From a bacterium (lineage in GTDB: Bacteria > Vulcanimicrobiota > Xenobia > RGZZ01), in NCBI GenBank assembly GCA_021782195.1, contig JAJXVI010000011.1, forward strand, positions 1 to 13,633: 13,633 bases of DNA. The letters run 5' to 3'. Of this stretch, positions 3,570 through 13,633 are shown in pieces. The notes below the pieces were generated by a model. The model saw only the letters and a list, made by a program, of their open reading frames with translations. It was not told the DNA's origin and did not search any database. Every line of letters begins with the position of its first letter. Position 1 is the first letter of the stretch. A program made the position numbers and the translations under genes.

Positions 3570-4823
3570 TCACGCTCTCCCCGATCTCGACCCATCAGGC
3601 GTCGCCGTTTCGAGACTCCGCCACAGATACCACGCAGCAACCGTTCGCCACGGTCTCCATGGCTCGGCAAGCGCGTCCATCTCGCGGGGGAGCGGCAGCG
3701 TCTCCATCCCGCGCAACCTTCCCATCGCCTTGCGAATCCCGAGGTCGGCGATGGGAAAGACGTCGGTTCGTCCCAGGTGGAAGATGAGCAGCATCTCCAC
3801 CGTCCACGGTCCGATCCCTTTGACTCCGACGAGCTGACGGCGGATCTCCTCATCGGCAAGATCGGGAATTCCCGCCAGATCCACGCGCCTTTCCACGGCC
3901 GCGAGGGCCAGCGCATACAGCGCACGCCGCTTTGGTCCAGACAGTCCGACGGATGCCAGAACCTCCTCGCCAAGCGCAAGCACGCCTTCGGCCGTCGGCG
4001 ATCCCTCGAACAGGCCGGCAAATCGACCGGCGATGGCGGCCGCCGCACGACCCGCCAGTTGCTGGTAGATAATCGACTCGCACAGCGCGGAGAATACGGT
4101 CTCCCCACTGCGTACGAGCGCAAACGCGCCCACTGCGTCAATCACGCGCCGCATCGCGGGATCGGCCCGCCGAAGCTGACGGACGGCGGCCTCGCGCGTC
4201 TTTGTGTCCCACAGCGAAACATGCAACGCCCCGGCACGCATTCCGCGCGACGCGTCGTCACCACTCTCCCGTGGCCCGGCTGCGAGCTTCCACCGGCCGT
4301 TCATCAGCGGATCGGTCTGAACACCCTCGGCCTCGAGAAGACGACGCTTCGTCACGATTCCTCCGTTCGCCGAGAAGCCGCCCGCCTGTCCATCCGCGGT
4401 CAGCACGCGATGGCACGGCACCACCAGCGGCACGGGATTGCGACCGAGCGCCTGTCCCACCGCACGCGCCGCGCCGACGCGACCCACGGCCCGCGCAAGG
4501 TCACCGTAGCTGCAGACCTGCCCGGAGGAGAGTCGACGCGCGTGCCCGTAGACCGCGCGGTCGAATTCCCCGTGACCTTCGAGATCGACGGGCACGTCGG
4601 AAAAGTCTTGAGGGCTCCCCCCGAGATGCTTAGCCAGCCGGTCCACGACGTCGTGCATCCACACCGGCAGTTCCTTCGCCGCCTCTGAACCGTCCGGCAG
4701 TCGTGCCTCCACCGACCGGCGGTCCAGCTCGGGGAGCACGACAGACGTCAGCCCGCGTTCACTCCACCCCACCGCACAAACCCCGCTTGTGACCTCAAAC
4801 ACGTGATGATACCGATGCTTCAT
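3570..4823 (-). CDS. Fusion of O6-alkylguanine-DNA alkyltransferase (Ogt-like) and AlkA-type 3-methyladenine DNA glycosylase
   Basis: This 417-residue DNA repair protein joins two alkylation-repair activities. Residues 1-165 are an Ogt/MGMT-type alkyltransferase, which moves O6-alkyl groups from guanine to its own cysteine. The PCHRV motif is at 136-140 (acceptor Cys137), preceded by GQVCSYGDLA at 101-110 and AVGQALGRNP at 121-130. Residues 200-410 are a helix-hairpin-helix glycosylase that removes N-alkylated bases. They carry the hairpin LVGVKGIGPWT at 331-341, DVFPIADLGIRKA at 354-366 with the expected catalytic Asp360, and PWRPWRTVAAWYLWR at 388-402. The frame is open without a stop between the domains. 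I chose the ATG at 4823 because AGGGAG lies 8 bases upstream and the alkyltransferase begins there; the open frame extends further upstream to 5231 but overlaps ybjQ and looks non-coding. No Ada-type regulatory domain is seen. Confidence 0.93.
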   Translation of the reverse strand: MKHRYHHVFEVTSGVCAVGWSERGLTSVVLPELDRRSVEARLPDGSEAAKELPVWMHDVVDRLAKHLGGSPQDFSDVPVDLEGHGEFDRAVYGHARRLSSGQVCSYGDLARAVGRVGAARAVGQALGRNPVPLVVPCHRVLTADGQAGGFSANGGIVTKRRLLEAEGVQTDPLMNGRWKLAAGPRESGDDASRGMRAGALHVSLWDTKTREAAVRQLRRADPAMRRVIDAVGAFALVRSGETVFSALCESIIYQQLAGRAAAAIAGRFAGLFEGSPTAEGVLALGEEVLASVGLSGPKRRALYALALAAVERRVDLAGIPDLADEEIRRQLVGVKGIGPWTVEMLLIFHLGRTDVFPIADLGIRKAMGRLRGMETLPLPREMDALAEPWRPWRTVAAWYLWRSLETATPDGSRSGRA

Positions 4824-4917
4824 CGGGGAGACTCCCTGTCCGTCAATCTCGCCTCGTTCGACAGATCCCTGGCACCCTGGCGTCGGGGCAGGGTGTGCCG
4901 CCAGGCCCGCGTGCGAT

Positions 4918-5268
4918 TCAGTGCGTTCCACCTTGCGGTTCCACCACCACTGCGGTGCCGTATGCAAGAACCTCGGTGGCCCCGGCTGCGACCTCCGTCG
5001 AGTCGTAGCGCATTCCGATGACCGCGTTCGCGCCCATTGCAAGTGCATTGGCGACCATGATCGCAAAGGCCTCGCGGCGAGTCTGCTCGCACATCTCGCT
5101 CCAGAGGGTGATGTTGCCGCCCACAAACATCTGCAGCGACGCCCCGAGGCTTCCGAGAACGCTGCGCGACCGCACGACGATGCCGCGCACGACGCCCAGG
5201 TTGCGCACAATGCGCACGGCGGGCAGCTCAAAAGCCGTTGTCACCTGCACGTTCGGGGCTGTTTCCAC
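4918..5268 (-). CDS. YbjQ/UPF0145 (DUF74) family protein, putative metal binding
   Basis: This 116-residue protein belongs to the small YbjQ family, whose members assemble into ring-like pentamers. The family is often labelled a heavy-metal-binding domain, but its true role is unknown. The whole family signature is present: a strand of VQVTTAFEL type at 8-15, SLGASLQMFVGGNITLW at about 40-56, REAFAIMVANALAMGANAVI at 65-84, and MRYDSTEVAAGATEVLAYGTAV at 86-107. The start is the GTG at 5268, because AGGAGG lies 7 bases upstream. An ATG at 5289 would place that site inside the gene and add seven residues. It sits 94 bases upstream of the repair fusion and 164 bases downstream of the kinase on the same strand, so it could be co-transcribed with either. 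Confidence 0.9.
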   Translation of the reverse strand: METAPNVQVTTAFELPAVRIVRNLGVVRGIVVRSRSVLGSLGASLQMFVGGNITLWSEMCEQTRREAFAIMVANALAMGANAVIGMRYDSTEVAAGATEVLAYGTAVVVEPQGGTH

Positions 5269-5432: not shown

Positions 5433-7133
5433 TCAGAGCGGCGCAGTCCCTCCTCCAACCGCGATTCGCAGGTTGAGCAGGAAATCGGCAGGGTCGTTCG
5501 TGTTGAAGCATCGGCGCGGGACGTGTGCGTCCACCGCGCGCCCGCGCCAGAGGTCCACAGGCAGGAGGATGATGGCGCGCAGCCCGGCGGAAGGATTGCT
5601 CGACTCACGGGCCGCGGCGGCCACGGCTTCCACGTTCCGCACGGTGTCACCGCCAATCACGAAGAACATCACCTGTGGCAGCAGGCTCTTGCGACGCAAG
5701 GCGGCCTGCCGCGCCAGCACCCCCGCGCGGTGGACGGCGTCCTCGTCCAGGCACGACTCGTGCCAGCAATACCCCCAGAAGAGGCGCAGATCGAGCCGCC
5801 TCCCGAAGACCAGCGCAAACGGCTCGGGGGGGTGCAACTCGATGACCCATCCGTGCTCTTCGAGACGCGCGCGCAAGGTCTCCAGCAGGCCGACCCAGTC
5901 GCGCCCCCCTTTGCCGTGCCCACTGGCGTGAAACAGGTTCCCGTCAGCACGGCGCACACCGGGCCCGCCGTCGCCGGGACCCAGGTTTCCCAGCGCCGCG
6001 TCGCAGTGCAACGAGGGAAGAGGGCGAAGCGGGGTGGTCTCGGCAGCGCGCCGCACAGGTTCGTCGCTCCCCCCCTCCGGCCCCACCGCGCCGGCGAGCG
6101 CACGCTCGTCCACTCCGAACGCCGCCCGCATGAGCGCCAGTCGCATCTCGGCCGCAGAAGCGAAGCGGGCCGCCGGGTCGAGATGGAGTCCTCGCATCAC
6201 CCACGCAGCCAGCGACGCGCGCACGCGACGACTCAAAAGCGCACGCATCGCTGCGTCATGAGGCTGCACGAAACGCGACACCGCTTCCGGCGGAGGCTCT
6301 CCTACAAACAACCAGTGTGCAATCGCCGCGACTCCGTACAGGTCGGACGCGGGTCCACTCCCGCCAGGGCTCGCCCCGGCGTCAGGCGACCGACCCGCAA
6401 AAGTGCCTGGCTCCCTCGGAGCGCCCTCCTCCACCCGACCACCCCCGTCGTCAGCCGGGGAGCGCAACACACCGACGTAGAGCTCCGGGGCGGCAAATCC
6501 GGGCGATCCCCAACCGCGCAACAGCGGACGCGTCCGTTCGTCCGCAACGAAGTGACGCGCGAGCCCGAAATCCACCAGATGCAGCGAACCCGCAGCGGGC
6601 CAGGATGTCGCGTCGCATGAGACGTCCGCGGAATCGGCGATCCCCGTCGGGGCATCCCCCCCCCGAAAGGACTCGCACCGGCCGCTGTCTTCCTCGGACA
6701 CCATCACGTTATCAGGAGAAACGTCACGAAACAGCACCGGCGGGTTCCGCGCGTGAAGATACTCCAGCACCTCGAGAATCCGCTCGAGCCAGTGAATTGC
6801 GAGCGACTGGCGCGGAAGTCCGCGCACTTCGACCCGTTCACGCAGCGAGAGCCCCGGCACGCGTTCCATCACGAGATAGAAAGCGCCTTCTTCCTCGAAC
6901 TCGTCGAACACCCGTGGCACGGCCGGGTGCGCAAGGCTCGCGAGGATTCGCGCCTCGTCGCGAAACTGCGCGACGTGCTCCTGGGCACCCCGCCCGCACG
7001 GAGGACGCATCTGCTTACACGCGCACTCCACGCCGCGCACGCAGTCAAACGCGTGAAAGACCGTGCCCATGCCGCCGTGCCCGAGCACACCCAGCACCTG
7101 GTAGCGTCCGCCACAGAGCGTTGCAGGTTGCAT
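5433..7133 (-). CDS. Eukaryotic-type Ser/Thr protein kinase with unknown C-terminal region
   Basis: This 566-residue soluble kinase, with no membrane segment, probably phosphorylates Ser/Thr in a signalling role. The kinase domain covers about 10-335: glycine loop GHGGMG at 18-23, ATP-anchoring Lys40 (CACKQM), helix-C Glu60, catalytic loop FRDVSPDN at 135-142, DFG at 188-190, APE at 215-217, and DLYG at 264-267. The usual HRDxKPxN Lys is Ser139; bacterial kinases with RDxSPDN are known, so activity is plausible. There are two insertions: an acidic Ser-rich stretch of about 30 residues between the catalytic loop and DFG (about 146-182), containing a G9 tract, and a Gly/Pro-rich one after APE (about 224-262). 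Residues 350-566 match nothing I recognise and include FALVFGRRLDLRLFWGYCWH and LRAIILLPVDLWRG. The ATG at 7133 has a GGAGCGGAAG stretch about 10 bases upstream. It lies 108 bases downstream of the NlpC-like gene. Confidence 0.88.
   Translation of the reverse strand: MQPATLCGGRYQVLGVLGHGGMGTVFHAFDCVRGVECACKQMRPPCGRGAQEHVAQFRDEARILASLAHPAVPRVFDEFEEEGAFYLVMERVPGLSLRERVEVRGLPRQSLAIHWLERILEVLEYLHARNPPVLFRDVSPDNVMVSEEDSGRCESFRGGDAPTGIADSADVSCDATSWPAAGSLHLVDFGLARHFVADERTRPLLRGWGSPGFAAPELYVGVLRSPADDGGGRVEEGAPREPGTFAGRSPDAGASPGGSGPASDLYGVAAIAHWLFVGEPPPEAVSRFVQPHDAAMRALLSRRVRASLAAWVMRGLHLDPAARFASAAEMRLALMRAAFGVDERALAGAVGPEGGSDEPVRRAAETTPLRPLPSLHCDAALGNLGPGDGGPGVRRADGNLFHASGHGKGGRDWVGLLETLRARLEEHGWVIELHPPEPFALVFGRRLDLRLFWGYCWHESCLDEDAVHRAGVLARQAALRRKSLLPQVMFFVIGGDTVRNVEAVAAAARESSNPSAGLRAIILLPVDLWRGRAVDAHVPRRCFNTNDPADFLLNLRIAVGGGTAPL
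6656..6664 (-). repeat. C9/G9 homopolymer tract inside the kinase gene
   Basis: Nine C on the plus strand read as nine G in the kinase coding strand and encode part of Arg-Gly-Gly-Asp in the insertion between the catalytic loop and DFG. A slip here would cut the kinase off before DFG. Confidence 0.9.
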
Positions 7134-7198
7134 GGGACGGGTCTTCCGCTCCGCAACGCTGAACGCCTGCCTTCAGGACCGCGCCAGCGCCCCGCGCG

Positions 7199-7238
7199 CC
7201 GCACGCGTCCGCGCGCACCCGTCCCCCCGCACGCGTCC
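7199..7238. repeat. Direct repeat pair CCGCACGCGTCC
   Basis: Two exact copies of CCGCACGCGTCC, at 7199-7210 and 7227-7238, lie in the 108-base gap between the NlpC-like gene and the kinase start. A third exact copy is at 9236-9247. See the finding on GC-rich repeats. Confidence 0.8.
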
Positions 7239-7241
7239 CCG

Positions 7242-7904
7242 TCAGCGCAGCCGATACGCGCGCGCGAACGGCGAACACGGCCCGGGATCTGCCACGTTGC
7301 GCAGATGGCGCGGACCCTGGTCGTCAACCACCCATCCGCGACGCGCCTGATTCTGAGCCACGCGACCGACAAACACGTAGACGTGCGCCGGGGTCTCGGA
7401 TTCGCCCGGGCTGTCCTGAGAAAAACAGACATCGCCCGGCACGAGAAGCATCGGGTCTTCTACGCGTTCGAAGCCCTGCGACGCGAGGAACCCCTCGAGG
7501 GCGCGCGTTCCAGGCGACGCGTCCTCGGGTACCGAGACACCGACCTGGCGAAGCGCGTGTGTGACAAAGTCCACCGACGTGTCCTCCCGTGAGGCGGCCG
7601 CAGCGGTCGCAACAGCCTGCGCGTACCAGTCGCCCCGCAAAAGCAGGTGCACCAGACGCACCGAGGCCTCCGCTCCCAGTACGTCGGTGATGTGCACGTG
7701 CGGCGCGTAGAAGTAGCCTGCGGAACCGACAGTCCCGATCGACGCCTCGAGTCGCACGAAGTAGTCCTCGCCAACGGCGTGGCACTCCCGAAACGTATAG
7801 ACCGCAGGAGCGTCGACGGCGACGCGGTCTTGCTCCGCTAGCTGCGACGCCTGGCGGTTCTCTCGCTTGTACCAGCTGTTGTGGACGACGGTCAGGATGC
7901 CCAT
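7242..7904 (-). CDS. NlpC/P60-like protein with SH3-like N-terminal domain, catalytic cysteine not found
   Basis: This 220-residue protein has an N-terminal region (about 3-75) that resembles the SH3-like module of bacterial wall hydrolases, in which a His-Asn-Ser-Trp-type start (HNSWYKRENRQASQL at 8-22) leads to a YFYAPHVHITD end (64-74). Residues 92-220 look like an NlpC/P60 fold: GDWYAQAV at 91-98, VDFVTHALRQVGV at 111-123, GDVCFSQDS at 157-165, AHVYVFVG at 173-180, and WVVDDQGPRH at 191-200. The position that normally carries Asp-Cys-Ser reads Ser-Val-Asp-Phe-Val, so the cysteine nucleophile seems absent while His174 remains. I see no signal peptide. The ATG at 7904 is chosen because the SH3-like module starts right after it. 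Only a distant AAAGGAAC lies upstream, and a longer start near 7970 is possible. Assignment is by pattern only. Confidence 0.6.
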   Translation of the reverse strand: MGILTVVHNSWYKRENRQASQLAEQDRVAVDAPAVYTFRECHAVGEDYFVRLEASIGTVGSAGYFYAPHVHITDVLGAEASVRLVHLLLRGDWYAQAVATAAAASREDTSVDFVTHALRQVGVSVPEDASPGTRALEGFLASQGFERVEDPMLLVPGDVCFSQDSPGESETPAHVYVFVGRVAQNQARRGWVVDDQGPRHLRNVADPGPCSPFARAYRLR

Positions 7905-8081
7905 GGTCGGATTCGCGTGCGTTCCTTTCGAGCGTGTCGGAGAGCGAACGCCCCCGACGTCGCCGAGCATTTTGCCTGCAACAGCGCGTCCCCCTGCCAG
8001 AGCGGACTCCTCAAGCGAGTCAGGGGACGGCGCGGGCGCACCCGCGGGGACGTACCGTTCATCGCCGCGCCACCCCGCGAC

Positions 8082-8150
8082 GCACGCGTGGTGTGCGACG
8101 GGGGACGGCACGCGCGGGGCCGGGCAAGAGGACGGCACGCGTGGTGCGCG
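8082..8150. repeat. Two interleaved imperfect direct repeats
   Basis: GCACGCGTGGTGTGCG at 8082-8097 recurs as GCACGCGTGGTGCGCG at 8135-8150 with one mismatch. Between and overlapping them, GGACGGCACGCG occurs at 8104-8115 and 8131-8142. All share an ACGCG core with the repeats at 7199-7238, 9236-9247, 10176-10196 and 10236-10256. Confidence 0.75.
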
Positions 8151-8228
8151 CCCGCGCTGCAGAGGAGGACGGGCCGGTGGCGCGAAAGCTCAGTGCGCCG
8201 TCACGACGGCCCATCCGGGGGCAGCGCC

Positions 8229-8261
8229 CCTGGTGATATTCCCTGACCAGGAGGATACTCC
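8229..8261 (+). promoter_or_regulatory. Leader with ribosome-binding site inside small inverted repeats
   Basis: AGGAGG at 8249-8254 is a near-ideal ribosome-binding site, 8 bases before a CTG at 8263. CCTGGT at 8229-8234 pairs with ACCAGG at 8246-8251, and GGAG at 8250-8253 pairs with CTCC at 8258-8261 around a GATA loop. The two stems share bases and are mutually exclusive, and both cover the site. Control of translation is an inference. Confidence 0.45.
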
Positions 8262-8262
8262 C

Positions 8263-9099
8263 CTGAAAATCGGCCTTGCAATGTTTTCCACCCACTACGC
8301 GATCCGTCCGGACGAGCTTGCGCGCGAAGCCGAAAATCGCGGATTCGAGTCGCTCTGGCTACCAGAACACACCCACATTCCGGTCGACCGAAAAGGTCCG
8401 ACGGGCGATCCACTGCCCGAGGAGTACTGGAACACGTTCGACCCGTTCGTTGCGCTCACGGCCGCGGCCGGCGCGACGCGCAACCTGCGCCTGGGGACTG
8501 GCATCTGCCTGGTTGTCCAGCGCGACCCCATCACCACGGCCAAGGAAGTCGCGAGCCTCGACTTCCTGAGCGGTGGAAGGTTCGAGTTCGGCATCGGCGG
8601 CGGCTGGAACCGCGAAGAGATCGGCAACCACCGGAGCGACTTCAAGACGCGCTGGAGACGACTGCGTGAAAGCGTCGCGGTGATGAAAAAAATCTGGACC
8701 GAGGACGAGCCTTCCTTTGAGGGGGAGTTCTTCCGCTTCGGCCCCATGCTGGCGTATCCCAAGCCTGTGCAGAAGCCGCATCCCGCCATCCACCTGGGCG
8801 GGCATGGATCCGTTGCCCTCGACCGCGTCGTCGACTACTGCGACGGATGGCTCCCGATCCCCGTGCGCACGAAAGACCTCGTCGCAGACATCGCCGAACT
8901 GCGCCGGCGCGCCGAAGCGGCGGGGCGAGACCCCAAAAGCATCGCGATCTCGCTCTTCATGGCGCCGACGGATGAGAAGGCCCTGCACGAACTGCAGGCG
9001 CTCGGGGTCGATCGCGCAATCTTCCGCCTGCCATCGGAATCACGCGAGACGATACTCCCGCGCCTCGACGACTACGCAGAAGTGATGAAGGCGCTGTAG
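8263..9099 (+). CDS. LLM-class flavin/F420-dependent oxidoreductase
   Basis: This 278-residue protein is a luciferase-like TIM-barrel oxidoreductase that uses FMN or coenzyme F420; the substrate is unknown. It most resembles the Rv2161c-type group annotated as F420-dependent. Hallmarks are MKIGLAMFSTHYAIRPDELA at 1-20, SLWLPEHTHIP at 30-40, LRLGTGICLVVQRDPI at 75-90, AKEVASLDFLSGGRFEFGIG at 93-112, GGWNREEIGNH at 113-123, and PKPVQKPHPAIHLGG at 166-180. The start is probably CTG at 8263: it is 8 bases from AGGAGG and gives the expected family N-terminus. The next in-frame ATG (8281) would remove the first beta strand. Whether the host makes F420 cannot be judged here, since no cofactor-synthesis genes are present. 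The penicillin-binding-type gene begins 37 bases after the stop, so the two may share a transcript. Confidence 0.92.
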   Translation: MKIGLAMFSTHYAIRPDELAREAENRGFESLWLPEHTHIPVDRKGPTGDPLPEEYWNTFDPFVALTAAAGATRNLRLGTGICLVVQRDPITTAKEVASLDFLSGGRFEFGIGGGWNREEIGNHRSDFKTRWRRLRESVAVMKKIWTEDEPSFEGEFFRFGPMLAYPKPVQKPHPAIHLGGHGSVALDRVVDYCDGWLPIPVRTKDLVADIAELRRRAEAAGRDPKSIAISLFMAPTDEKALHELQALGVDRAIFRLPSESRETILPRLDDYAEVMKAL

Positions 9100-9106
9100 G
9101 GGAGGA

Positions 9107-9120
9107 CGGGACGCTTCCCG
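9107..9120 (+). other. Small hairpin between oxidoreductase and transpeptidase-like genes
   Basis: CGGGA at 9107-9111 pairs with TCCCG at 9116-9120 around a CGCT tetraloop. It directly abuts the GGGAGGAA ribosome-binding site of the next gene. There is no T-tract, so it is more likely a processing or translation element than a terminator. Confidence 0.35.
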
Positions 9121-9136
9121 GGAGGAACACTTTCTC

Positions 9137-10135
9137 GTGAACGCGTCTCCATCTTTCGACCGTTCCCCGCCCCTCCTGCTCCTGGTGTGCGCCCTCGCGC
9201 TGGCCACCGCGCCCGCGGCCCGCGCCCGTCCGTCCCCGCACGCGTCCCCGGAACCCCGTCACGCCGTCCTCGGCGTGGACCCCCGCGAGAATGCGCGGGT
9301 TCACGCCATCTTCGGCGCGCGCGCGGGAGCGGCAATCGTCTACGACGTCGTGCGCGACCGCATCGTGTCGGTGGTGCACCCGCCGTTCGCCTTCTCCGTC
9401 GTCCACCCGCCTGGCTCGCTCATGAAGCTCGTGACCGCATTCGCCCTGCTCGAACACGGCCTGGTCTCCGACGCCGACGTGGTGGACTGCACCAACCACC
9501 TGACCATTCGGGGCAACAGCTACACCTGCGCCGTGAAGGGCGGACACGGCCGCGTCAACCTCCACGAAGCCATCGTGCGATCGTGCTGCAGCTTCTTCTA
9601 CACCATCGGACAGCGCCTGCCACCACGTCTGTGGCTCGCCGCCGCGCGCGAACTCGGACTCGGCGCGCCGAGCCCCTTCCCGGGCGGCGTTCGCGCCCAG
9701 GTGCACCTGCCCCGCTCCCCTCGTGACCGCACGCTCATGCTCGTGGGCGAAGGGCCGGCCGTGCGCATCACACCGTGGGACGCACTCCATCTGGTCGTCC
9801 GCTTGCGACGCCTCGCGCGGACGAACAGCGCCGCCGCCTTCGTCTACGCCGCAATGCGCGACGTCGTCGAGCGCGGCACGGGCCAGGCGGCCCGCATTCG
9901 CGGCGTGGACGTGCGCGGAAAAACCGGCACCTCCGCCTGGCTGCACTCCTCCGAACATCCCCACCCCACCCACGGCTGGTTCGCCGCCACCGCGCGCAAC
10001 CTCGCCGTGGTCGTCTACGTCGAACGTGGCACCGGAGACGACGCCGCCCTCCTCGCGGGGCGCATCCTGCGGGCGCTCCTGGATCCGCCACCGCCACACG
10101 CACCCAGGACACCCCATGGAGGTGAGAAAGATTGA
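9137..10135 (+). CDS. Exported penicillin-binding-protein-type transpeptidase domain protein
   Basis: This 332-residue exported protein carries only a penicillin-binding transpeptidase domain, with no glycosyltransferase or dimerisation domain. A signal sequence covers about 10-30 (PPLLLLVCALALATAPAARA). The acylation motif SLMK at 94-97 (Ser94 nucleophile, Lys97) and RGKTGTSAW at 261-268 (KTG 262-264) are intact. The second motif, normally Ser-x-Asn, reads Ser-Cys-Cys at 149-151 in EAIVRSCCSFFYTIG, where relatives have SCN. Cys118 and Cys131 bracket a short loop and could form a disulfide. The reaction would be peptidoglycan cross-linking or carboxypeptidation, if active. The GTG at 9137 has GGAGG 11 bases upstream. 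Its TGA overlaps the TTG start of the SpoIID-like gene, so the two are translationally coupled. A Pro-rich, Arg-rich tail ends the protein. Confidence 0.87.
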   Translation: MNASPSFDRSPPLLLLVCALALATAPAARARPSPHASPEPRHAVLGVDPRENARVHAIFGARAGAAIVYDVVRDRIVSVVHPPFAFSVVHPPGSLMKLVTAFALLEHGLVSDADVVDCTNHLTIRGNSYTCAVKGGHGRVNLHEAIVRSCCSFFYTIGQRLPPRLWLAAARELGLGAPSPFPGGVRAQVHLPRSPRDRTLMLVGEGPAVRITPWDALHLVVRLRRLARTNSAAAFVYAAMRDVVERGTGQAARIRGVDVRGKTGTSAWLHSSEHPHPTHGWFAATARNLAVVVYVERGTGDDAALLAGRILRALLDPPPPHAPRTPHGGEKD

Positions 10136-11466
10136 ACGCACCGCAGTCTCCACCGCCGTGCCCCACCCCCCGATGGGCCGTCCCACGCGCGCGGGCGAGC
10201 GCGGAAGCGGGGCCCCTGTGGAAGCTTGGGTGCGCGGCCGTCCCACGCGCGCGGGCCGGCGCCCACCGCATCGCGCTGCTCCTCGTCCTGCTCGCGTGGA
10301 GGGCCGCCGCTTCGCCTGCGTTCGCGCGAACCGTCACCGTCCACATCCTCGGCGCACGTCCGCCGCACGCGCTGGCGCTTTCAAGCGAGGCGGGGGGACG
10401 GGTGCGGGTTGGCATGCGCGTGGACGTGTGGCGTGCGGGCGTACCACTCCGTCTGTGCGCCTGCGCCCCCAGAAGCATCGTGGTGCGGTTCGGGGACGCC
10501 CCCCCCGAGCAAGCGACGGCCGTGACCGTGGTCGCGCCCGTCATGACGTGTGGCGGGCGTCGCTACACCGGCGCCATCACCGCGCGCTGTCCCGACGGCG
10601 CCACCCTGTTCCTCGTCAACCGCACCCCGCTCGAAGACTACGTCGGCGGCGTGGTGACCTCGGAGGCCCTGCCCGGCACCCCTTTGCAGGCCCTCCGCGC
10701 CCAGGCGGTGGCGGCGCGATCTTTTGCCGTGGCGAGCGCGCATCTGCTCACCGCACAGAGGGGACGTCCCCGCGGCCCCCACGCCGAAGAGGGGTTCGAC
10801 TTCTGCGACCTGACCCACTGCCAGTCTTTTCGCGGACTCGGCCGCGGCGCCGCGCTGCAGGCTGCGCGGGATACGCGCGGACTGGTGTTGTGGAGCGAAG
10901 GCAGGGTCGTCGCCGCGTGGTACCACAGCACCTGCGGGGGACGAACCGCCGCCCCTCGGGAAGCGGGCGCCGACCCGGCCCTGCGATCGGTTCCCGACGT
11001 GGCTCCGAGTGGACGGGCGTGGTGCGCGGATTCGCCGCACTTCCGCTGGCACGTCGACCTCGGTGTGGCGCGCGTGCGCGACGCCCTCAACCGCGACCCG
11101 TCCACGCGGGTTGGCCGGCATCTGCGGACCCTGCGCGTGACCCGACGCTATCCCGACGGGCGCGTGGCCCGTATCGAACTGCGGGGCAGCCGCGTCCGGC
11201 AGGTGTCGGGACAGGCGTTCTGGATGGTGCTTGGACGCGAGCTAGGATGGGGAAATGTAGAGAGTGCGTGGTTCTACGTGCATCGTTGCGGCCGAGTCTT
11301 CGAGTTCGACGGACGAGGACTCGGTCACGGATGCGGCATGTGCCAGTACGGCGCGGCCGCAATGGCCCGCGCGGGCTACCACTGGCGCGCCATCCTCGCG
11401 CACTACTACCCGGGCACGACCGTCCGCCCGCTCCCCCCTCCGTCGCCTGAAGGAGCCCGTACGTGA
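10132..11466 (+). CDS. spoIID: SpoIID/LytB-family lytic transglycosylase-like protein, exported
   Basis: This 444-residue protein belongs to the SpoIID family, whose members cleave glycan strands of peptidoglycan, preferring strands without stem peptides. The core is clear: TPLEDYVGGVVTSEALPG at 165-182 with the probable catalytic Glu178, then LRAQAVAARSFAVASAH at 188-204, FDFCDLTHCQSFRGL at 222-236, YHSTCGGRTAAP at 264-275, and the end motif GLGHGCGMCQYGAAAMARAG near 390. The start is TTG at 10132, overlapping the previous stop, with GGAGG 9 bases upstream. The hydrophobic signal segment begins only at about residue 46 (HRIALLLVLLAW), after an Arg/Pro-rich extension that contains a duplicated AVPRARA. 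No ATG or GTG in frame lies nearer. It is coupled to both neighbours. No other sporulation gene is present, so a role in the vegetative wall is likely. Confidence 0.92.
   Translation: MNAPQSPPPCPTPRWAVPRARASAEAGPLWKLGCAAVPRARAGAHRIALLLVLLAWRAAASPAFARTVTVHILGARPPHALALSSEAGGRVRVGMRVDVWRAGVPLRLCACAPRSIVVRFGDAPPEQATAVTVVAPVMTCGGRRYTGAITARCPDGATLFLVNRTPLEDYVGGVVTSEALPGTPLQALRAQAVAARSFAVASAHLLTAQRGRPRGPHAEEGFDFCDLTHCQSFRGLGRGAALQAARDTRGLVLWSEGRVVAAWYHSTCGGRTAAPREAGADPALRSVPDVAPSGRAWCADSPHFRWHVDLGVARVRDALNRDPSTRVGRHLRTLRVTRRYPDGRVARIELRGSRVRQVSGQAFWMVLGRELGWGNVESAWFYVHRCGRVFEFDGRGLGHGCGMCQYGAAAMARAGYHWRAILAHYYPGTTVRPLPPPSPEGART
10176..10256 (+). repeat. Exact 21-bp direct repeat, 60 bp apart, in the SpoIID N-terminal extension
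   Basis: The same 21 bases, beginning GGCCGTCCCACG, occur at 10176-10196 and 10236-10256. The copies are in the same reading frame (60 bases apart) and encode the peptide AVPRARA twice. They share the CCACGCGCG core with the other GC-rich repeats in the window. Confidence 0.85.
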
Positions 11467-12149
11467 AACTTCCGCGATCGTCTGCAGGACGCCCGTGGCT
11501 CGCGTCACCACGCCTCGCGCTGGCGCTGTTCGCGCTGGCGCTGTTCGCCTGTACGGCGGCCATCGAAGCGCGTCCCCTGCCACGCGACGCATTCACGGCC
11601 TTTCGCGCGGCCTCCCACGACCGCTCGCTGCGCGACGAAATTGTTGGCCTGGCCACGCGGGCGGTCGTACAGACCGTGCGAGGTCGCAACGTTACCGCGC
11701 TCGCGCCGCCACGCCACGCACTCCTGCGTCGGCGGATCGGCATCTTCGTGACGCTCGTCGAGCACCATCGGGTGCGAGGGTGCATGGGCGACCTCGACCC
11801 GGTCACCTCAAGCGCCGCCGGGGACATCGCGCGCGCGGCCCGACTCGCCGCTTCTGAAGATCTGCGCTATCCGCCGCTGCGCCCTTCCGAACTCGACGAA
11901 ATCCGGCCCGTGGTCTCGGTGATCGGCCCGTTGCGGCGCGTGCTCTCGCCTGCCGGGCTCGATCCGGTCGTCCTCGGACTTTTCGTGCAACAGGGTGGCA
12001 GGGGAGCCGTGCTGCTGCCGGGGGAGGCGCTCTCGCCTGCGCGCCAGATTGCTGTCTGCAAGGCGAAGGCCGGCATCGCTCCGGCGGCGTATCCTGCCAT
12101 GTACGTCTTCCCCACCGTCGTGTTCGAGCAGAGAAGGAGTCCGCGATGA
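11463..12149 (+). CDS. AMMECR1-domain protein with export signal
   Basis: This 228-residue protein carries an AMMECR1 domain (about 45-222). The molecular activity of that domain is unknown, though it often occurs in the AmmeMemoRadiSam gene set. Family marks are RRRIGIFVTL at 89-98, RVRGCMGDLDP at 103-113 (matching the conserved RGCIG, with Cys107), ARAARLAASEDLRYPPL at 123-139 (the ASEDPRFPP-like stretch), FVQQGGRGAVLLPGEAL at 174-190, and AVCKAKAGI at 197-205. Unlike usual family members, it begins with a hydrophobic signal segment (LALALFALALFAC at 18-30). Cys30 in LFAC is not a convincing lipobox because of Phe at -2, so cleavage after AIEA is as likely. The GTG at 11463 overlaps the SpoIID stop and has AAGGAG 7 bases upstream. 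The TGA overlaps the next ATG. The Memo and radical-SAM partners are not in the window. Confidence 0.9.
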   Translation: MKLPRSSAGRPWLASPRLALALFALALFACTAAIEARPLPRDAFTAFRAASHDRSLRDEIVGLATRAVVQTVRGRNVTALAPPRHALLRRRIGIFVTLVEHHRVRGCMGDLDPVTSSAAGDIARAARLAASEDLRYPPLRPSELDEIRPVVSVIGPLRRVLSPAGLDPVVLGLFVQQGGRGAVLLPGEALSPARQIAVCKAKAGIAPAAYPAMYVFPTVVFEQRRSPR

Positions 12150-13633
12150 ACGCATCGATTCCCGGCTACTGGCACTGGGTGGCCCTCGCCACCCTCATGC
12201 TCTGGGCACTGGTGCTGCGCATGCGCGTCTCGTGGCGAACCCACCTGGCGGTCGCGCTCGCCATCGCATGGGCCACCGCGCTCTTCTCTTGGTCGGTCAC
12301 CCTCGATCCGGCGGTGGGCAGCGTGTCGGGCCACGTGGCTTCGGCGAAGAGCCACCAACCGCTGGTCGGCGCCCGTGTCTACCGGCCCGACGGCGACGCG
12401 TGGACGCGAACCAACGCAAATGGCGACTTCCACCTTCCAGGCGTACCGGTGGGGAAGGACGAGCGCATCACCGTGCGCGTCCTCGGATACGAGACGTCGT
12501 ACAGCGAGGTCGCCGTGACCGAAGCGCACGACACGAGCGGCGTGCTGTTCCGCATGACACCGCGCAGGCCAACCTTCTACATCTACAACTCCACCCGCGT
12601 ATTCACCCCTCGCCAGAAGCCGGTGATCCAGATCAACGGCGACCTGATCAACAATCTCGACATCGCAGTGTACCGCCTCGACCCGCGCACCGACCGGGCC
12701 GGCGTGGTCGATGCGAGCAGGCGCACGAAGCTGGCTGCCCGGGTCACACGCAACCAGAACTCGATTCGGGAACTTCACTACGAGCCCACGCTCGACCCTG
12801 ACGGCGACTTCGCCGACAGCGTGACGCTTCCGGATCGCCTCTCCCCTGGCCTCTACCTCGTCACGGCAAGCCAGGATGGTGGACCGCTCGTGCGCACCGC
12901 CTGGTTCCTGGTCACCGATCTGGCCGTGGTCACCCGTCGCTCTCCCCACGAACTGCTGGTCTACGCCCAGCGGTTCAGCACTGGAACGCCTGCGGCGGGG
13001 GTTCGTGTTGACCTCCTCGGAGCCGACGGCGCAGTGGTTCGCGAGGGCGTCACGGGCCGCGACGGCACGTGGCTGTGGAAGAAACCCGCCCCCCAGCGCT
13101 TTCAACTGCTCGCGAACCAGAACGACATGTACGCCTACTGCACGGTCGACGCCGCATACGACGTCGACACCCAGCAACCGGCGGAAGTCTACCTCTTCAC
13201 CGATCGTCCCATCTATCGACCGGGGCAGCAGGTGTTCGTAAAAGGCATCGTCCGCCTCAACCACGACCGTGTGCTGAGCATTCCAACTGGCCCGGTGAGC
13301 GTCGCCCTCCAGGATAGCCAGGGCGCCACGCTCGAGAAGACGGTCGTCCCCTGCAGTGCGTTCGGAGGGTTCGCCTGCCAGTTCAAGCTGCCAGCCCATG
13401 GGTCGCTGGGAAGCTACGCCGTGCTGGCCACGTTCGGACGGCTGGTGCAAAACGCCAGTTTCCAGGTCGCCGACTACCGCAAGCCCGAGTATCGGGTCGA
13501 CCTGACCCCTGAAAAGAGCCGCTACACCAGTGGAAATCGTGTACGCGTGCGCATCAACGCCCGTTATTTCTTCGGGTCGCCGGTCGCAAACGCCAAGGTT
13601 CACTGGTCGGCCTTCGAGTCGTACGCGCACTTC
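12146..13633 (+). CDS. Bacterial alpha-2-macroglobulin, N-terminal part (cut by window end)
   Basis: The first 496 residues of a bacterial alpha-2-macroglobulin, a large envelope protein that traps proteases through a bait region and usually a thioester. Two hydrophobic segments (about 10-27 and 34-52) anchor the N-terminus. A carboxypeptidase-regulatory-like beta domain follows (about 58-125: SVSGHVASAKSHQPLVGARV, then TNANGDFHLPGVPVG). Macroglobulin (MG) domains come next, with the hallmark VYLFTDRPIYRPGQQVFVKG at 348-367 marking MG2, and later YRKPEYRVDLTPEKSRYTSG. The CxEQ thioester and bait region would lie beyond the window, so function as a trap is not tested here. The ATG at 12146 overlaps the AMMECR1 stop and has AAGGAG about 6 bases upstream. 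In E. coli, YfhM is anchored as a lipoprotein and paired with PBP1c; this one starts with membrane segments. Confidence 0.93.
   Translation, partial: MNASIPGYWHWVALATLMLWALVLRMRVSWRTHLAVALAIAWATALFSWSVTLDPAVGSVSGHVASAKSHQPLVGARVYRPDGDAWTRTNANGDFHLPGVPVGKDERITVRVLGYETSYSEVAVTEAHDTSGVLFRMTPRRPTFYIYNSTRVFTPRQKPVIQINGDLINNLDIAVYRLDPRTDRAGVVDASRRTKLAARVTRNQNSIRELHYEPTLDPDGDFADSVTLPDRLSPGLYLVTASQDGGPLVRTAWFLVTDLAVVTRRSPHELLVYAQRFSTGTPAAGVRVDLLGADGAVVREGVTGRDGTWLWKKPAPQRFQLLANQNDMYAYCTVDAAYDVDTQQPAEVYLFTDRPIYRPGQQVFVKGIVRLNHDRVLSIPTGPVSVALQDSQGATLEKTVVPCSAFGGFACQFKLPAHGSLGSYAVLATFGRLVQNASFQVADYRKPEYRVDLTPEKSRYTSGNRVRVRINARYFFGSPVANAKVHWSAFESYAHF

Follow-up and report, generated by a model that had tools for sequence, protein, structure and literature searches.

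In a 13,633-bp contig from a fragmented MAG, analysed here in its entirety (hereafter, the window), we identified what is, judging by its sequence, a new variant of the bacterial operons that combine an alpha-2-macroglobulin (A2M) with cell wall enzymes. The genes encode, in this order, a stand-alone penicillin-binding transpeptidase (TP), a SpoIID/LytB-type protein, an exported-type AMMECR1-domain protein, the A2M itself and, past the contig end, a VanW-domain protein. The interpretation that we prefer, with a probability of about 0.6, is that of a conserved envelope-defence operon in which the A2M is a trap, the wall enzymes carry out repair and AMMECR1 is an accessory. Within the papers searched, both the recurrent partnership of AMMECR1 and VanW with A2M and the split TP/SpoIID form combined with a thioester-type A2M are new.

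The window comprises a complete contig (G000:C574) of a 3.5 Mb genome that is 61% complete and consists of 705 contigs, so the A2M gene is cut at residue 496 and the genes downstream of it are beyond view. The four genes are real, contiguous and all on the + strand, namely, the TP (9137..10135; 332 aa), the SpoIID/LytB-type protein (10132..11466; TTG start), the AMMECR1-domain protein (11463..12149; GTG start) and the N-terminal third of the A2M (12146..13633, the contig end). At the three junctions, the next start codon (TTG, GTG and ATG) lies 4 bases within the end of the preceding gene; the gene calls and start codons thus bear out the original prediction of a four-gene row on one strand with three 4-base overlaps. 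Shine-Dalgarno-like sequences, GGAGG or AAGGAG, are visible by eye ahead of all four starts. In the 8900-13633 interval, a promoter scan detected zero promoter-like sites and a terminator scan detected 2 terminator-like sites, against 2.1 expected. The row would presumably be read as one transcript. An F420-type LLM-class (luciferase-like) oxidoreductase gene (7867-9099, + strand; TIGR03619, 262.9 bits) ends 37 bases before the TP gene but was left out of the module because the corresponding position upstream of TP is occupied by a divergent gene in genome G019 and by another, different gene in G018. Elsewhere in the window, inspection by eye revealed an ECF-sigma-like gene followed by a putative anti-sigma gene (962-2215), a methyltransferase/glycosylase-type DNA repair frame (3570-5231, - strand) and a protein-kinase-like frame (5433-7133, - strand).

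The Pfam Transpeptidase domain (PF00905; 72.1 bits, cut-off 22.1) is the sole Pfam match of the TP at E<=0.1, its best PDB matches are PBP2/MrdA-type chains, and its N-terminus looks by eye like a signal peptide. The SxxK (PPGSLMK) and KTGT motifs are present, whereas the second motif, which in transpeptidases is usually SxN, is SCC in the window and SCS or SCN in the alignment of two relatives, so the activity of the TP is unsure. The SpoIID/LytB-type protein scores over the cut-off with the domain model TIGR02669 (158.2 bits, cut-off 83.3) and matches PF08486 (63.5 bits), and its E178 is invariant in two alignments; as a member of this family, it may be expected to cleave glycan strands. A 27-base direct repeat (10176-10202 and 10236-10262; 93% identical, 60 bases apart) is located in the region for the SpoIID N-terminus, upstream of a signal-peptide-like segment.

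The A2M contains MG2 (69.3 bits), CarboxypepD_reg (carboxypeptidase-regulatory-like; 55.3 bits) and bMG3 (38.1 bits) domains, all over cut-off, has YfhM and the A2M chains 4u48 and 4u4j (putative lipoproteins) among its matches, and begins with two hydrophobic segments seen by eye; no lipobox was seen by eye at this N-terminus. The contig ends before the TED domain, so the status of the CxEQ thioester motif was read from relatives and from contig C8 of the same genome. The motif (CVEQ or CTEQ) is present in 8 of the 8 AMMECR1- or VanW-linked A2Ms that reach that part, a count that leaves out 2 more linked A2Ms cut before the motif, and on C8 as well; the complete linked A2Ms retain the bait-region and thioester domains. 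Contig C8, which carries the sole VanW match in the window's own genome, encodes the 684 C-terminal residues of an A2M, with GGCVEQTM, followed by VanW. Against one and the same G002 protein, the A2M piece in the window aligns with residues 1-504 (46.5%) and the C8 part with residues 952-1589 (50%). We infer that C8 continues the A2M of the window, one gene on two contigs with about 450 residues between them, and that VanW is the fifth module member.

The VanW gene follows A2M directly in G002 and G019, by Pfam, and in G001, by tblastn and family search. The PF04294 domain is over cut-off in the relatives and on C8, C125 and H148 are invariant in 8 rows, with the Cys and His found also in the C8 protein, and the N-terminus shows by eye a membrane or lipoprotein-like segment. 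Among the 98 genomes, 9 have VanW, and they include all 6 that have an AMMECR1 placed by the tree in the exported type (hypergeometric probability 8e-8 by genome and 0.008 by family, relatedness not removed). According to the passages available from PMC12729407, LD-transpeptidase activity has been found for two C. difficile proteins of the VanW family and is lacking in some other VanWs. The VanW of the module resembles these two enzymes, LdtCd4 and LdtCd5, in having the VanW domain with invariant Cys and His but differs from them in being encoded beside A2M and AMMECR1, and its LD-transpeptidase role is putative.

The AMMECR1-domain protein is readily recognized by PF01871 (92.4 bits, cut-off 25) but stays under the cut-off of the TIGR04335 (AmmeMemoSam_A) model (85.9 bits, cut-off 99). 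Cys107 of its RGCMG motif is invariant in 12 aligned rows, and its predicted structure (pLDDT 91.7) matches 1vaj, 1zq7 and 1wsc, with known AMMECR1 structures being the only matches of the fold at E<=0.001. It thus resembles cytosolic AMMECR1 and the AmmeMemoRadiSam proteins in domain, fold and the RGC-type Cys, whereas it is of an exported type and belongs to a clade of its own, and the module genes include neither a Memo nor a radical-SAM gene. A plasmid search with the AMMECR1 of the window gave no match.

In a tree of 62 AMMECR1 rows, which omits 3 of the 31 hits in the phylum (two G031 fragments and one from G000), the drawn (midpoint) root separates two groups with 99/97 support. The exported-type clade, on one side, consists of 29 rows: 11 linked to module genes, 2 unlinked from G026 and 16 context-less database rows, which had all been retrieved by their similarity to the window protein and two of which are identical to linked rows. 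All 11 linked AMMECR1s belong to this clade; for the 33 rows outside it, no linkage was seen, the flank inspected being limited to about 1.5 kb for 7 of these. Among the rows with context, the proportions are 11/13 inside and 0/33 outside (Fisher 6e-9, relatedness not removed). The linked rows require 8 changes on the tree, compared with an average of 10.3 after shuffling (values as low in 17 of 500 shuffles, context-less rows being treated as a separate label), so the linked AMMECR1s are not one subclade. A hydrophobic stretch (16 residues with mean KD of at least 1.5, a limit chosen after the values were seen) precedes the AMMECR1 domain in 29 of 30 clade rows, the window protein being counted twice, compared with 5 of 30 measurable rows outside the clade, where 3 further rows were unmeasurable; in 4 of those 5, the stretch lies >200 residues into longer frames. 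Several database AMMECR1s (P0010-P0017), some of them named from Synechococcus and Thermostichales, fall within the exported-type clade. Exported AMMECR1 as a clade appears, within the papers searched, to be new.

The search for AMMECR1 in 98 genomes, including that of the window, produced 31 hits in 22 genomes, and for 20 of the 30 outside the window, wider flanking sequence was retrieved. Module genes are present at 6 of these 20 loci. The full order TP-SpoIID-AMMECR1-A2M-VanW is found in G002 (L033), which belongs to the same family as the window and in which the TP is cut by the contig end, and in G019 (L037), from another family, in which the A2M is broken by unknown letters. G001 (L034) has SpoIID-AMMECR1-A2M-VanW, the contig starting inside SpoIID; G018 has TP-SpoIID-AMMECR1 (L035); and two further contigs, G018:C65 (L036) and G019:C225 (L038), have AMMECR1-A2M, the A2M being cut by the contig ends. 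A2M-VanW is located on a separate contig of G018 (L102). The other 14 loci (L039-L052) have no tblastn match to module-type TP, SpoIID, A2M or VanW queries. In G026, the parts are all on different contigs (L040, L041, L100, L123 and L140), namely, a VanW, two AMMECR1s of the exported type, and a SpoIID and an A2M that are close to the module types, so the linkage of the module is not universal. The recurrence of the same order in other genomes indicates that the row is beyond chance. SpoIID and A2M alone say little, since SpoIID-like frames were found at E<=1e-15 in 142 of 149 genomes of the phylum and A2M bait domains in 72 of 98.

Beyond the phylum, a scan of genome contigs with two narrow patterns found 3 loci, among them L057, in a MAG listed under Pseudomonadota, where the order is VanW-AMMECR1-A2M. 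The same order is present in three relatives of that genome, G155, G152 and G153 (L092-L094), and no match to TP or SpoIID was found at these four loci. Just upstream of the L057 genes (6329-7666) is a gene with HTTM and vitamin K-dependent gamma-carboxylase lumenal domains. Of the 89 genomes related to that of L057, 53 had an AMMECR1 match, part of which were fetched, and a wider phylum sample of 377 genomes had 14 that matched at E<=1e-30; these cut-offs could miss weaker exported AMMECR1s. Seventeen further loci on the Pseudomonadota side, L092-L094 included, were examined with flanks (8 of 11 regions from the relatives and 9 from the wider sample), and at the other 14 there was no match to the A2M or VanW of the module, 4 being on contigs <5 kb.

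The conservation across genomes that the original prediction called for is thus seen both in the order, which recurs outside the family of the window (G019), and in the AMMECR1/A2M/VanW core, which is present in another phylum. Neighbours that vary freely, which would have spoken against a module, are seen in part: the order recurs, but the Pseudomonadota-side loci are without TP and SpoIID, the G018 genes are in pieces and those of G026 are dispersed.

The spacing of the genes varies among the loci. A start codon at -4 is found at the TP/SpoIID junction in the window and G018 but is absent in G002 and G019; at SpoIID/AMMECR1, it is found in the window, G002 and G018 but is absent in G001 (+47) and G019 (+3). 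At AMMECR1/A2M, this arrangement is seen in the window, G001, G002, G018:C65 and G019:C225 but not in G019:C195 or the four Pseudomonadota-side loci, and at A2M/VanW, it is seen in G001, G002 and G019 but not in G018. In all four Pseudomonadota-side loci, it is the VanW/AMMECR1 junction that has the -4 start. The set of exported wall enzymes and protease trap is probably translationally coupled.

The systems most relevant to the present finding are the two types of A2M operons. In the type I operon, E. coli yfhM-pbpC, a thioester A2M adjoins a transpeptidase, as is probably the case in the module; passages of PMC5764988 describe the thioester A2M with PBP1c and the proposed trap-and-repair model. 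The module, by contrast, has no PBP1c, its TP showing only PF00905, without a glycosyltransferase domain; it adds SpoIID, AMMECR1 and VanW, and its A2M shows no lipobox in the window. The type II operons, yfaA-yfaT-yfaS-yfaQ-yfaP of E. coli and magABCDEF of Pseudomonas, are similar to the module in having exported partner genes alongside A2M; the linked A2Ms, however, have CxEQ, which type II A2Ms are without, and the module includes AMMECR1 and VanW. None of the 98 genomes, that of the window included, has a match over cut-off to DUF2300, a model from the type II operon, and DUF2138, DUF1175 and DUF2135 had no match in the five window genes scanned, the contig ending inside A2M. The P. aeruginosa MagD is reported, in the text available from PMC5764988, to form complexes with MagA, MagB and MagF of its own operon, a precedent for the complex that the module proteins may form.

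The closest parallel is YfaQ, which, according to the excerpted text of PMC12282094, consists of a transpeptidase-like N-terminal domain and a SpoIID-like C-terminal domain and the deletion of which in E. coli results in wider cells with an envelope-like profile. The yfaQ gene adjoins yfaS in E. coli K-12, where yfaS is annotated as a pseudogene. YfaQ scores 27 bits with Pfam SpoIID (cut-off 23); the SpoIID profile of the module aligns with YfaQ residues 315-406, the Glu included (hhalign E 7.5e-4, probability 25%), and the TP profile with residues 53-115, including GSLxK and RSC (E 2.2e-4, probability 45%), compared with E 0.61 for the control profile comparison with YfaA. BLASTP of the TP against YfaQ gave nothing significant. 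These profile scores are modest but collinear and agree with the published reading of YfaQ, which has the appearance of relatives of the module's TP and SpoIID fused into one protein. The fusion-like architecture supports a functional link between TP, SpoIID and A2M, and this part of the module, in which the same domains are encoded by two genes, has a precedent that places the locus among the variants of the A2M/wall-enzyme operon. The statement in the original prediction that yfaS is paired with genes of unknown function therefore has to be corrected for YfaQ. A possible relationship of YfaT (DUF1175) to VanW or AMMECR1 was considered and found no support (hhalign E 0.96 and 0.36, respectively); E. 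coli YfaT (L053, 10337-10960) scores 20.8 bits with NlpC/P60, below the cut-off of 23, a hint of a wall-enzyme-like fold.

No description of AMMECR1 or VanW with A2M was found in the open-licence papers, among the matches listed, nor was a paper found in the open-licence literature on AMMECR1 together with SpoIID. A2M has been reported in Patescibacteria, in the part of PMC9793634 that was available; as a candidate paper on VanW and A2M, it was rejected because 'vanw' there is the name of an author.

Under the envelope-defence interpretation, the central component would be the A2M, acting as a protease trap of the thioester type that is tethered to the inner membrane through its hydrophobic N-terminus. 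Any protease that enters via the damaged outer envelope would cut the bait region and be captured covalently, and the wall enzymes would mend the same breach, with SpoIID trimming damaged or denuded glycan, the TP making DD cross-links and VanW making LD cross-links. Exported AMMECR1, with its invariant Cys, might be an accessory of A2M and/or VanW, either an assembly factor or a thiol enzyme.

A considerably less probable scenario puts wall-building first: TP, SpoIID and VanW would rework the peptidoglycan during growth or division, and the A2M, instead of trapping proteases, would serve the wall enzymes as a scaffold or brake. Three of the five members indeed belong to wall-enzyme families, and the widened cells of the yfaQ deletion (again from the available text of PMC12282094) would fit this scenario. 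The preservation of the bait-region and thioester domains in complete linked A2Ms argues against it, however, as does the Pseudomonadota-side version, which retains A2M but only one wall enzyme.

Somewhat more doubtful still is a role of AMMECR1 in the maturation of either VanW or the A2M thioester, in which it would act through the invariant Cys. The invariance of Cys107, the coupling of AMMECR1 with A2M or with VanW, depending on the group, and the presence of CxEQ in every readable linked A2M are compatible with such a role. However, the notion that the linked A2Ms are special for the thioester had to be rejected, since 14 of 19 readable unlinked A2Ms have CxEQ too (20 hand-picked A2M loci, on contigs without an AMMECR1 or VanW match, one of them cut short), so this control does not favour AMMECR1 serving the thioester; moreover, the thioester of animal homologues forms unaided. 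That the locus is merely a neighbourhood of unrelated exported proteins under a shared promoter in one lineage seems highly improbable: the ubiquity of SpoIID and the commonness of A2M bait domains make some adjacency expected and the parts are dispersed in G026, but the linkage recurs across families and, as VanW-AMMECR1-A2M, in the Pseudomonadota-labelled genome and three relatives, and no AMMECR1 outside the exported-type clade was seen linked.

Returning to the envelope-defence operon, the module joins three lines, namely, type I A2M/PBP1c, type II A2M/YfaQ and the recently described VanW LD-transpeptidases, which together suggest that bacterial A2M works with enzymes that cross-link and cut peptidoglycan. 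It also provides AMMECR1, a widespread fold, with an extracytoplasmic context that is open to testing. Conceivably, although we regard this as a speculative proposition, exported AMMECR1 represents an unrecognised periplasmic thiol family with a VanW LD-transpeptidase and a thioester A2M as lasting partners, which matures one of them or ties the trap to peptidoglycan. If true, this would put the AMMECR1 fold in a setting outside the cytoplasm.
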